From Gammaproteobacteria bacterium (GTDB lineage Bacteria > Pseudomonadota > Gammaproteobacteria > GRL18), in NCBI GenBank assembly GCA_016744395.1, contig JADGEK010000020.1:1-51332 (forward strand): 51,332 bases of DNA, in the 5' to 3' direction. Of this stretch, positions 29,896 to 33,864 are shown piece after piece. The position numbers and the translations under genes are program-made. Below the pieces are notes generated by a model, which saw only the letters and a list, made by a program, of their open reading frames with translations, was not told the origin of the DNA and did no database searches. The stretch's first letter is position 1, and each line of letters begins with the position of its first letter.

Positions 29896-29934
29896 ATGAT
29901 ATTAAAGACGTTTATAGGTTATTCAGGTAGATGA
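29896..29934 (+). CDS. Possible 12-codon leader peptide upstream of the DNA methyltransferase
   Basis: ATG ATA TTA AAG ... AGA TGA would encode MILKTFIGYSGR. GGAG lies ten bases upstream. Its stop codon overlaps the methyltransferase start as ATGA (29931-29934). The methyltransferase itself has only a short AGGT near its ATG, so its translation may depend on ribosomes finishing this short frame. It is too short to prove from sequence alone. Confidence 0.4.
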   Translation: MILKTFIGYSGR

Positions 29935-30845
29935 AGTTTATCGATCTTTTTGCTGGTATTGGCGGTTTTCACCTCGCCTTTCATCGACAAGGTGCAAATT
30001 GTGTATTTGCCTCTGAAATTGACAAAAATGCCAGATTGACTTATGAAAAAAATATGTCTCAATATTCACCTGAATTATTTAATTCACATCGATTCAACGA
30101 TGATATTTTAAAAATTAATTCCCCAAATACACAAATTCCAGATTTTGATATTCTTTGTGCTGGCTTTCCATGCCAACCCTTTAGCCAGGCAGGCTACAAA
30201 AGAGGCTTCCAAGAAGACAAAGATGATAGAGGCAACATGTTCTTTAAAATTTGCTCCATTATTGAAAGCAAAAGACCCAGTGCTTTTTTCTTAGAAAATG
30301 TCAGGCATATCTTAAAACACGACGATGGCCGAACGTTTAAAATCATTCAAGACTACTTGGAAAGACAATTAGGTTACACTTTTCACTACCAAGTCGTGAA
30401 AGCTTCTGAGCACGGTTTACCACAACATCGCCCCAGAGTATATATAGTGGGTTTTAGAAAAGATCTCCCCGAATTACCCCGATTTCATTTTCCTCAAGCA
30501 AGCCCTCTTAAACTGTCCATGTCTGATATATGGGGAGGTGAATGTCCTAAAAAAATCGGTTTTACCCTTAGAGTTGGCGGTAGGCGCTCAGGTTTAAATG
30601 ATCGTCGTAATTGGGACACCTATCTGGTGAATAATGAAGTAAAAGTCTTATCATCAAAAGAAGGTCGAAAGATGATGGGCTTTCCTGATGACTTTAAATT
30701 TCCAGTCTCTGAAACTCAGGCAATGAAACAATTGGGAAATAGTGTTGCTGTCAATGCTGTTGAAGCCACAGCTTCCGAAATAATTATCTACCTAAAAAAA
30801 TACAGTCATCTTTTTAATCCAAAAAATAAGCTGGCTGTTGCATAA
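29931..30845 (+). CDS. C5-cytosine DNA methyltransferase
   Basis: Methylates cytosine at carbon 5 in a specific DNA sequence. The 304-residue protein has motif I DLFAGIGGFHLAF (residues 5-17), motif IV with catalytic C81 in GFPCQPFSQAG, motif VI LENVRHIL (E122), motif VIII QHRPRVYIVGF (Q165, R167, R169) and motif X QLGNSVAVNAVEA. The target-recognition region between VIII and IX is short, which fits the small size. No restriction endonuclease gene is recognisable nearby, so it looks like an orphan methyltransferase. It overlaps a short upstream frame by ATGA. The recognition sequence cannot be read from the protein. Confidence 0.93.
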   Translation: MKFIDLFAGIGGFHLAFHRQGANCVFASEIDKNARLTYEKNMSQYSPELFNSHRFNDDILKINSPNTQIPDFDILCAGFPCQPFSQAGYKRGFQEDKDDRGNMFFKICSIIESKRPSAFFLENVRHILKHDDGRTFKIIQDYLERQLGYTFHYQVVKASEHGLPQHRPRVYIVGFRKDLPELPRFHFPQASPLKLSMSDIWGGECPKKIGFTLRVGGRRSGLNDRRNWDTYLVNNEVKVLSSKEGRKMMGFPDDFKFPVSETQAMKQLGNSVAVNAVEATASEIIIYLKKYSHLFNPKNKLAVA

Positions 30846-30930
30846 ATGAGTCTTGCTTTCAAAACAAGACAATGTGATAATTTAAAACAGTTATTCATTT
30901 AGCTCTCACCAATTGATATCTACTCAACCG

Positions 30931-30946
30931 CCAGATACGAATCTGG
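30931..30946 (+). promoter_or_regulatory. Hairpin at the ribosome-site position of the HD gene
   Basis: CCAGAT and ATCTGG pair perfectly around ACGA and end eight bases before ATG 30954, where a ribosome site would be expected and none is seen. It could control translation of the HD-nucleotidyltransferase pair or mark the end of a short methyltransferase transcript. Confidence 0.35.
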
Positions 30947-30953
30947 TCAATTT

Positions 30954-31499
30954 ATGGAAACTCTATCACAGAGACGATTAATCTCTTTAAAAAAATCAAC
31001 CAAGGCCAAACATCCTTTATCACATTCTAATGATGATATTTATATTTCTCACAAATCCTACCTACTCAATTTACTCTATGATCTTGATGGCATTCATCAA
31101 AACCCCATTTACCACCCTGAAATTGATACCCTTTATCATTCAATGCAAGTATTTCAACTGGCACAGAAAAAAACAGATAATCCTTTTTTACTTGCAGCGG
31201 CTTTATTTCACGATGTGGGAAAATCAATCGCAATAGCTGAGCATGATAAGATTGGTTCAGAAATGCTTAAAAATGTTCTGACAGAGCCTATTCCATGGAT
31301 GGTCAGACATCATCTTGACCTCCTACAAAACCCAAAACGAACTCGCATGAAACGTGCAAATAGCAAGCAATTAATATGGCTAGAAAAATTACGCACCTGG
31401 GACATTCAAGGTCGGAGTACTGATATTGAAGCCATACATCCTGAACATGCAATCGAAATAATCAGCCAAACTGATGAAATATTTCAGTGTCATTTATGA
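30954..31499 (+). CDS. HD domain protein, related to the HD domain of Cca
   Basis: A 181-residue probable metal-dependent phosphohydrolase. The HD core runs from H62 in HPEIDTLYHSM, through LFHDVGKS with H86-D87, to H97 and the pair H119-H120. HPEIDT-x2-H and the spacing to HD closely match the HD domain of Cca encoded 4 kb away (HPEIDTGVHTM and LLHDLGKG), which suggests common origin. The basic N-terminal 30 residues have no recognised domain. Its last codons overlap the nucleotidyltransferase gene as ATGA, so the two are translationally coupled and probably act together. Substrate is unknown. Confidence 0.8.
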   Translation: METLSQRRLISLKKSTKAKHPLSHSNDDIYISHKSYLLNLLYDLDGIHQNPIYHPEIDTLYHSMQVFQLAQKKTDNPFLLAAALFHDVGKSIAIAEHDKIGSEMLKNVLTEPIPWMVRHHLDLLQNPKRTRMKRANSKQLIWLEKLRTWDIQGRSTDIEAIHPEHAIEIISQTDEIFQCHL

Positions 31500-32173
31500 A
31501 AACAAACAAATCACAACTATTACGTTACTCCCTCGCCGTTGAAGCAGCACGACTCATGTATGAAGAAGGTATACAACAATACTTAACGGCTAAACAAATT
31601 GCCTCAAAACGATTATTAGGCCGGGTCTATAGAAAAAAAATGCGCTACCGCCCAAAAGACTTACCTTCAAATGGTGAAATTAAAGAAGCTCTCTTACAAT
31701 TAGTTCAGCAAAATGAAGGTGATGATCACTTCTATCAATTATTCGCTATGCGCGTCATCGCATTGGAAATTATGAATGAATTGATTGGCTTTACACCTTG
31801 CTTGATTGGTTCAGTGAGTACAGGCCACATAAGAAAAAGCAGTGACATTGATTTACACTTGTTTACAAATAGTCTGGAAACATTGGAAATAAGGCTTATA
31901 GAGTTACAGTGGAAATACAAATTAAATGAAGTGGCTATACAAAAAAATGGTCGGATAAAGCTCTATACTCATGTTTATCTTGATTATGTTTTTCCTATAG
32001 AATTATCAGTCTATCCAACACAGGAAATTAGAGTTGTCTCCAAAAGCAGTACTGATGGCAAACCCATCATGAGATTCAAAGCCAGTAAAGTTGAACAATT
32101 ATTAATGACTGAACATGAGCTGGAATGGCAGCGATATCTTTCGGATGGTATTTTGAGAACTTATAGAAATTAA
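31496..32173 (+). CDS. Nucleotidyltransferase-fold protein paired with the HD protein
   Basis: A 225-residue protein of the polymerase-beta-like nucleotidyltransferase superfamily. The signature is LIGSVSTGHIRKSSDIDLHL: GS at 105-106 and D117/D119 of the metal site. A third acidic residue may be supplied by the later LDYVFPIELSVYP strand. The N-terminal 100 residues are helical and basic and not recognised. ATG 31496 overlaps the HD stop (ATGA); a GTG at 31487 is an alternative. Family members add nucleotides to RNA, proteins or antibiotics, or make signal nucleotides, so the reaction cannot be told. A strong terminator follows at 32179. Confidence 0.78.
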   Translation: MKTNKSQLLRYSLAVEAARLMYEEGIQQYLTAKQIASKRLLGRVYRKKMRYRPKDLPSNGEIKEALLQLVQQNEGDDHFYQLFAMRVIALEIMNELIGFTPCLIGSVSTGHIRKSSDIDLHLFTNSLETLEIRLIELQWKYKLNEVAIQKNGRIKLYTHVYLDYVFPIELSVYPTQEIRVVSKSSTDGKPIMRFKASKVEQLLMTEHELEWQRYLSDGILRTYRN

Positions 32174-32178
32174 CGATC

Positions 32179-32204
32179 AAGGGGAGTTACCACTCCCCTT
32201 TTTT
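32179..32204 (+). terminator. Rho-independent terminator after the nucleotidyltransferase gene
   Basis: AAGGGGAGT and ACTCCCCTT form a perfect 9-bp stem around TACC, followed by TTTT. It closes the methyltransferase-HD-nucleotidyltransferase group and lies 10 bp before the end of the convergent C13 peptidase gene. Confidence 0.85.
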
Positions 32205-32213
32205 AAATCAGAA

Positions 32214-33716
32214 TCAGTGATTCAGGATAACCGTTTTATCTATTAGAGGATTCAACTCAGTTTGATTCATATTAATGGCTTTAAAGGCCAGATTGATCGG
32301 TTTGTTTTCTTTGTATTTTTGATCAAGCTCTGCAGTGTACTGATTTAATTTGTCCGCTATCTTTTTTCCAATACTCAACTGCGGTAATGATGCTTCTACT
32401 TTCTCTGCTTTCTCTTTGTCTTGAATGTACCGTTTAGCTTGCTCAAATGCATCAATAAAAGAAGTATTTTTATTCAGTGCAAATTTAAATATCGCCTCGC
32501 CGAACCAGGTAAATTCATTTTCATTGCTACAACCAAATGATTGTTTGTCTGCCGCTGAAGCAGTAAAAATCAACGTATGATCATCCTCAAGAGGTTTAAT
32601 ATATCCCCCTGAGTAACAAGAAGAGACCACAATAACACGCCACTTTATACCTGAATCATCCAATTGTTTTTTCAAGACCTCTGGTGTTAAATCATTCAAA
32701 TCTAAGGGCCAAAAATCAACAGATAAATTATGTTTTTTTCCACCATGAGAGGTCAGATATAAAAACAATATGTCTTGTTCTACGTTCATATGTTCTGACA
32801 TACCATCCAGCATTATTTTTAAATTATGAGTATTCGCCAGAGGTTCAGTTTCATAGGTTTTTAAATGATTAATTAATAAGGCAGAGCGTCCCGATGTATC
32901 AAAACGAGAATCCATTAAATTCTTAGCATATTTTACTTCTTTATAAAAAACATCCTGTGTTGCGTAGCTGGAAAAGCCAAGAAAATAAAGATCCGTTTTA
33001 TCCTGACGTTCTTTAAGTAAGTCATTATTGAGAGAGTAAATCATTTCAAATTGCTGGTAAAAAACATCTTCAACATTCACTTTATCATAGGGGTTTTCTT
33101 CTTCAGCGCTGTCTTCATCATAAGAGGCATACCAGAACGTCCCCATTTGTTCTGAGAAATAACTTGCTGGAATAAAATAAAGGACAAAAATAATAAGTCC
33201 AATAGCCACATATTTTAATTTTGAAAGAGGAGTATAAAGATGGACAGCTCTCAATAAAGAAATCAAAAACCAAATCAAGATAATAATGGAAAGGCCATAC
33301 AATAAATACCAATACCAGTAACCTAAATCATAAAGATCGTATTGATAGGTCTCAACAAGCCAATAGGACAACAGTCCTGGAAAGCTGAAGACTGTATCAA
33401 GTGAAATAAAAAGGGTTGCAACAATAAGAAATTGATGTTTTTTAATAAAAAAACGTTCAACAACGAAGGCCGTCAATAATAAGAGGCTGGTAGTGAACGC
33501 AAACCCCGTCACCGCATAATCATTAAATTCAGGCGCAGGCAAATAAATAAGATAAGTACATAAAATAATAAAGCTCATGTTGAACAGGGCAAGTAAGATC
33601 ACTTGTTCAGTGTCAAAACAATAATCTCGAAAATCAATTTTAAGAAATAGCGCCTGTCGAGCCGCCAGCTTAAGATTACTGAATAAAGCTTTAAAAGACG
33701 ATTTAATTGTATTCAT
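32214..33716 (-). CDS. Membrane-anchored C13 (legumain/caspase-fold) peptidase
   Basis: A 500-residue protein from ATG 33716 (MNTIKSSFKALFS); the open frame extends to a TTG at 33731. Five or six membrane segments lie in the first 190 residues (with short aromatic-rich loops such as YWYWYLLYG). They are followed by a soluble caspase-fold domain with catalytic His324 in LYLTSHGGKKH and Cys367 in VVSSCYSGGYIKP, the pattern of peptidase family C13. Bacterial C13 proteins are little studied. FTASAADKQSFGCSNE after the Cys is also typical. The acidic loop DEDSAEEENPYDK links membrane and protease parts. No ribosome site is evident. It is convergent with the nucleotidyltransferase gene. Confidence 0.83.
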   Translation of the reverse strand: MNTIKSSFKALFSNLKLAARQALFLKIDFRDYCFDTEQVILLALFNMSFIILCTYLIYLPAPEFNDYAVTGFAFTTSLLLLTAFVVERFFIKKHQFLIVATLFISLDTVFSFPGLLSYWLVETYQYDLYDLGYWYWYLLYGLSIIILIWFLISLLRAVHLYTPLSKLKYVAIGLIIFVLYFIPASYFSEQMGTFWYASYDEDSAEEENPYDKVNVEDVFYQQFEMIYSLNNDLLKERQDKTDLYFLGFSSYATQDVFYKEVKYAKNLMDSRFDTSGRSALLINHLKTYETEPLANTHNLKIMLDGMSEHMNVEQDILFLYLTSHGGKKHNLSVDFWPLDLNDLTPEVLKKQLDDSGIKWRVIVVSSCYSGGYIKPLEDDHTLIFTASAADKQSFGCSNENEFTWFGEAIFKFALNKNTSFIDAFEQAKRYIQDKEKAEKVEASLPQLSIGKKIADKLNQYTAELDQKYKENKPINLAFKAINMNQTELNPLIDKTVILNH

Positions 33717-33864
33717 AAGCAGAAAAATCAATGAGTTATTATTAATAATTCATTGTATCAAAGCATTTCTGACGTTTCTAACCCACTTAATTAATTTAAG
33801 ACCAGCCTCACAGTTTTCACAGCACAATCGTTGTTTTTAATTCATCATTAAAAATTCAAAACAA

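Follow-up and report, generated by a model that had tools for sequence, protein, structure and literature searches.

Do a C5-cytosine methyltransferase, an HD protein and a Pol-beta-like nucleotidyltransferase (NTase), encoded one after another on the same strand, form one functional unit, and what would such a unit act upon? The locus lies in the window, by which we mean the whole analysed stretch of 51,332 nucleotides; it makes up the opening 51 kb of contig C141, in a genome of 4.87 Mb and 212 contigs. A first-pass annotation had described three genes with an ATGA overlap, a 108-bp gap and a strong terminator, and all of this is confirmed in the sequence (Table 1). The ATGA at 31496-31499 is exactly the stop of the HD gene and the start of the NTase gene, and the gap between the methyltransferase and HD genes comprises exactly positions 30846-30953. 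The position given as the beginning of the cassette, 29896, is the ATG of a 12-codon open reading frame and not the methyltransferase start; this short frame possibly encodes a leader peptide. The three genes are preceded by a gene for an iron-containing alcohol dehydrogenase and followed by one for a C13-family peptidase. The peptidase adjoins the pair in one congener as well (L033) and occurs in 3 of 16 congeners, the same count as the pair, while in another congener (G618) it lies on a different contig from the pair.

Table 1. Coordinates of the genes and elements discussed; positions without a prefix are given as plain numbers, those in other contigs or loci with their handle
Feature	Position	Strand	Remarks
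12-codon ORF MILKTFIGYSGR	29896-29934	+	sequence inspection; ATGA overlap with the methyltransferase ATG (29931)
C5-methyltransferase	29931-30845	+	304 aa; PF00145, E 2.7e-77
Candidate extended -10 element TGTGATAAT; TGTAATAAT in two relatives	30873..30881	+	conserved in leader alignment
Conserved palindrome GCCAGATACGAATCTGGTCA, 20 bp	30930..30949	+	ends 4 bases 5' of the HD start codon
HD protein	30954-31499	+	181 aa; PF01966, E 3.9e-9
Pol-beta-like NTase	31496-32173	+	225 aa; PF18765 E 5e-4 and PF01909 E 0.012, both below cut-off
Intrinsic terminator hairpin 3' of the pair	32179-32200	+	folding z -3.9
C13-family peptidase, downstream neighbour	32214-33731	-	N-terminal hydrophobic stretches
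CCA enzyme of the window genome	25962-27182		
mrcA-linked copy in the window genome (L002)	C61:9979-10374		
mrcA-linked Pol-beta-like proteins	L002, L004-L031, e.g. L005:1501-2091	-	~200 aa

The affinities of the methyltransferase lie with restriction-modification. In a search of 369 genomes of the class, its three closest relatives were found at 64, 63 and 59% identity; two of them adjoin an RE_HpaII endonuclease (PF09561) and the third is fused to one (E 1e-75 to 1e-110). None of the three has the HD or NTase of the pair beside it. The window contains no significant match to an HpaII-type endonuclease and the whole genome has no PF09561 match, which upholds the annotation's remark that no endonuclease is recognizable. 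Because its relatives sit beside or are fused to such an endonuclease and its own genome is without one, the methyltransferase is, judged by this kinship, an orphan HpaII-type neighbour, a leftover of a restriction-modification system outside the pair module. It is thus like M.HpaII-type systems in the 59-64% identity to their methyltransferases, and unlike them in the endonuclease missing from window and genome alike. Kinship alone would also suggest CCGG as its target. At one HpaII restriction-modification locus we observed an adjoining small NTase with an HEPN-like gene, of the MNT-HEPN type (L093:2483-3158).

The HD and NTase genes occur together in all four genomes that carry them: the window genome (G000), two further members of its genus (G618 and G622, whose contigs are the same as loci L032 and L033) and one bacterium of another order (G139, locus L003). 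The NTase copies of L032, L033 and L003 share 80, 78 and 46% identity with that of the window. The pair is present in 3 of the 16 genomes of the window genus; G139 was the sole carrier among the 247 genomes searched in its order, and a search of 398 genomes of the phylum gave G000 and G139 alone. None of the other three pair-bearing loci has the methyltransferase. The HD and NTase genes are, then, a true, rare and conserved pair that travels without the methyltransferase; of the co-occurrence of three genes envisaged in the first-pass annotation, the HD-NTase part holds (4/4) and the methyltransferase part does not. Around the L032 copy the neighbourhood is different: it includes a reverse transcriptase of group II type, a gene resembling transposases and one for a helix-turn-helix protein, the first two labels being our own reading of the sequences. 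No enrichment beside defence genes, for which the annotation had proposed a search, was seen: neither protein has a PADLOC match at E <= 0.001, and there is nothing defensive among the immediate neighbours of the pair. A phage or plasmid origin of the pair was considered and rejected, as the NTase has no match in plasmids, phages or viral contigs.

What governs the expression of the pair? Within the 108-bp gap, the palindrome GCCAGATACGAATCTGGTCA occupies the place expected for the ribosome-binding site of the HD gene and can fold as a 7-pair hairpin. In a leader alignment of three congeneric species all 20 of its columns are invariant, compared with 37 of the 77 upstream. Among 121 loci it is restricted to the pair locus; it was found neither in the rest of the window nor in viral contigs or plasmids, and it is missing from G139, where the HD gene is internal to an operon. 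That this palindrome is identical before the HD start in three congeners argues for a control region belonging to the pair itself. The element is probably an operator or translational control hairpin, and the pair would appear to be transcribed and regulated on its own from the conserved leader. Upstream of the palindrome, a conserved stretch with the consensus TGTRATAAT is possibly an extended -10 promoter element; a sigma-70 scan did not report this candidate. Sigma-54 sites were scored with home-made consensus weights and shuffled controls: the regions before the methyltransferase and HD genes reached 13-14 of 24.5, the same as shuffles, and the sigma-54-like sites of the G139 operon and of the window genome's own rtcB reached 20.5 and 21.5. 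Control of the window pair by sigma-54 and RtcR was rejected, there being no site before it.

These observations bear on the annotated three-gene cassette, in which the methyltransferase would serve as a self-marking or regulatory partner. The genes are indeed adjacent on the same strand with the 108-bp gap between them. However, the sole conserved regulatory element sits between the methyltransferase and the HD gene, the relatives of the methyltransferase belong to HpaII restriction-modification, and three other genomes carry the pair without this gene next to it, so that we regard membership of the methyltransferase as extremely improbable.

The genomic surroundings of the pair in G139 offer a different suggestion. 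There the gene order is RtcR (PF06956, divergent), SPFH, RtcB, RtcA, RlaP, HD and NTase, with the genes from SPFH to NTase on one strand, the pair closing the operon and the first five genes each identified by Pfam at E <= 4e-28. Convergent to this repair operon lies a gene for a DUF4132/DUF7737 protein (L034:16714-19317, minus strand). Linkage to an rtc operon is seen in G139 alone, the pair being unlinked to rtc genes in the window genus. The window genome carries rtcR-rtcB on contig C39, which is not the contig of the pair, RtcR being cut by the contig end; an SPFH gene and an RlaP-like NTase gene near a WYL-type regulator (G000:C133, L091:3-3787) resemble parts of the G139 repair operon, and no RtcA was found in the genome. 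Two further associations with RNA repair concern the HD type alone and not the pair: the nearest viral HD (L068) has RlaP at its flank and RtcB following, and a Miltoncostaea plasmid (L122) encodes a fusion of such an HD with a Pnkp-like kinase (AAA_33 domain). Many stand-alone phage HD proteins of the same type sit among unrelated genes, and the phage link with Pol-beta NTases is therefore confined to a minority of contigs.

The HD protein has a six-ligand motif (H62, H86-D87, H97, H120, D150), which was aligned to PhnZ and is invariant at all six metal ligands in five relatives. A tree built from 44 HD domains places the HD proteins of the pair with the HD domains of CCA-adding enzymes at 100/100 support, apart from PhnZ-like proteins. 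With its ligand set complete, the protein is by all appearances a metal-dependent enzyme of the CCA-enzyme HD type. In E. coli, the HD domain of the CCA enzyme is reported to act both as a 2',3'-cyclic phosphodiesterase and as a phosphatase. The structural model of the HD protein (pLDDT 83), built from five sequences only, has the PhnZ oxygenase as its best match (Z 17.6), and next among phosphohydrolases come the HD domains of tRNA A/CCA-processing enzymes (Z 10.6-10.8).

The NTase retains the motifs GSxxxG (G105-S106), D117-I-D119 and E169, which are kept in 4/4 paired copies. In its model (pLDDT 84.5) a helical N-terminal part precedes a Pol-beta core, and this core is matched best, at Z 8-9, by Cid1, TUT7, GLD-2 and CCA enzymes. 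Further Pol-beta families follow almost level, with alarmone synthetases, CBASS CdnC and MenAT toxin at Z 7.3-8 (MenAT1 at 7.4), and on the modelled core, matches at Z 8-9 do not separate RNA from other acceptors. A distant homologue, mostly at 30-38% identity, is found in about half of the sampled gammaproteobacterial genomes (130/274, with the paired copies of G000 and G139 counted in). At most of the loci read it adjoins a PBP1A-type (mrcA) gene, a label that again is our own sequence reading, and neither of two tested proteins of this group reached the cut-off of any Pfam or NCBIfam family. All four paired NTases have the second catalytic Asp, but it is lacking in each of 23 mrcA-linked paralogues; the former therefore look like active enzymes and the latter like pseudo-enzymes. 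Through the pair, an NTase with an intact catalytic site is connected with a common pseudo-NTase that lies next to mrcA and has no name.

The position of the pair within the RNA-repair operon of another bacterium argues that it probably mends broken RNA ends. We favour its interpretation as a two-gene RNA 3'-end healing module, with a probability of about 0.5. The HD protein, like the HD of CCA enzymes, would strip a terminal or 2',3'-cyclic phosphate off RNA that has been cleaved, the probable substrate being tRNA halves; the NTase would then re-add one or more lost 3' nucleotides, and the healed end would pass to ligation by RtcB or another ligase, or to recharging. The hairpin before the HD gene probably serves to adjust how strongly the two genes are expressed. 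Such a role is suggested by the joint travel of the two genes, the intact catalytic motifs of both, their own conserved 5' element and their place at the end of the G139 operon, and is consistent with the CCA-type grouping of the HD, the RlaP/RtcB flank of L068, the kinase fusion of L122, the RNA nucleotidyltransferases among the best matches of the modelled NTase core and the presence of RtcR, RtcB, SPFH and an RlaP-like gene in the window genome. Its main weakness is that one genome alone has the pair in an rtc operon. The pair is unlinked in the window genus and has no sigma-54 site although the rtcB of the same genome has one; that genome is without RtcA; the HD model is closest to the PhnZ oxygenase; and the wider NTase family, as mrcA-linked pseudo-enzymes, gives no pointer to RNA. 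That HD and NTase are a pair, as the annotation proposed, is borne out by their constant co-occurrence, and RNA end processing is the best reading among the options it had named, the methyltransferase as a member being dropped. If the healing reading is true, some bacteria replace bases lost at breaks ahead of sealing, and the pair would offer a two-protein system open to direct testing. Which RNAs bacterial Rtc repair acts on is, to our knowledge, still under study.

The strongest rival to RNA healing is an anti-phage module of the Clover type, in which a small nucleotide made by the NTase would activate or restrain a nucleotide-hydrolysing HD. A two-gene HD-NTase defence system has been published (PMC12265719), and the patchy occurrence of the pair in 3 of 16 congeners, together with the reverse transcriptase and transposase-like gene near its L032 copy, would suit a defence function. 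Clover CloA-CloB likewise consists of two genes for an HD protein and a Pol-beta NTase; its own traits are synthesis of p3diT by the NTase and restriction of phage. However, CloA, a dGTPase, is a large protein that forms octamers and has residues discussed as far as Y452 (PMC12265719), whereas the HD protein here has only 181 aa, is of the CCA/PhnZ type and matches no dGTPase family in Pfam or NCBIfam, a distinction drawn from the published description of CloA. A PDB sequence search with the HD profile gave PhnZ and TmpB alone and no CloA, the pair lacks PADLOC matches at E <= 0.001, and in G139 it belongs to an RNA-repair operon; we hold the defence reading to be unlikely. Still less probable is a toxin-antitoxin-like pair, with the NTase modifying a protein or tRNA in the manner of MntA or MenA and the HD protein reversing this or being controlled. 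The tight coupling of the genes and the match of MenAT1 to the NTase model speak for it, as does the sole NCBIfam hint for the NTase, which is MntA at a sub-cut-off E of 0.0059; this similarity, however, covers just 29 residues around the active site, there is no HEPN partner, and the G139 operon context points elsewhere.

Alternatively, the HD protein might act on small molecules, for instance as a PhnZ-like di-iron oxygenase, and its pairing with the NTase would then serve metabolism. PhnZ is its best PDB match both by sequence (4.8e-10) and by model, and a YxxE sequence (Y53-E56) stands ahead of H62, as the YxxE loop does in PhnZ (PMC8177086). Yet the HPE of this motif is also found in the window genome's own CCA enzyme, the tree places the HD with CCA-enzyme HDs, and no phosphonate genes are among the immediate neighbours; the score against the NCBIfam Phn-HD family, 26 of 214.6 bits, is far under the cut-off. 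We give an oxygenase or metabolic role very little credence.

How far would an RNA 3'-end healing pair be new? Action on RNA ends is already known for HD and Pol-beta domains. We tentatively suggest, as a possibility we would not bet on, an undescribed RNA-repair unit: a separate CCA-type HD and a terminal NTase, preparing ends for RtcB-type ligation inside or apart from an rtc operon, under its own hairpin control, its NTase being either a descendant or an ancestor of the degenerate mrcA-linked proteins. The parts of the rtc literature consulted describe no HD-NTase pair, and we found no description of an rtc-coupled version that consists of two genes and bears a conserved leader hairpin of its own, although the 2016 survey of RNA repair in NAR (doi 10.1093/nar/gkw722) may list the pair. 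RtcR-controlled rtcBA operons with RlaP are akin to it through the G139 operon end and the RtcR and RtcB of the window genome; they differ in that the window pair is on another contig than rtcB and without a sigma-54 site. RlaP (PF10127), an NTase beside RNA ligases, is predicted to restore lost nucleotides (PMC7824862) and is similarly a stand-alone Pol-beta NTase in an RNA-ligase operon, but the window NTase has no match to PF10127 and the pair coexists with RlaP in G139. Class II CCA-adding enzymes share the Pol-beta NTase and the same type of HD, with which the pair groups in the tree. The pair, unlike them, is two separate proteins in a genome that keeps its own CCA enzyme; PF01743 (PolyA_pol head) and PF12627 (RNA-binding) are matched by neither the HD protein nor the NTase, and the NTase has a family-specific helical N-terminus. 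Apparently split CCA enzymes, with the NTase head and the HD in two overlapping genes, were observed in two viral contigs (L070:3700-5426 and L157:3581-5423).
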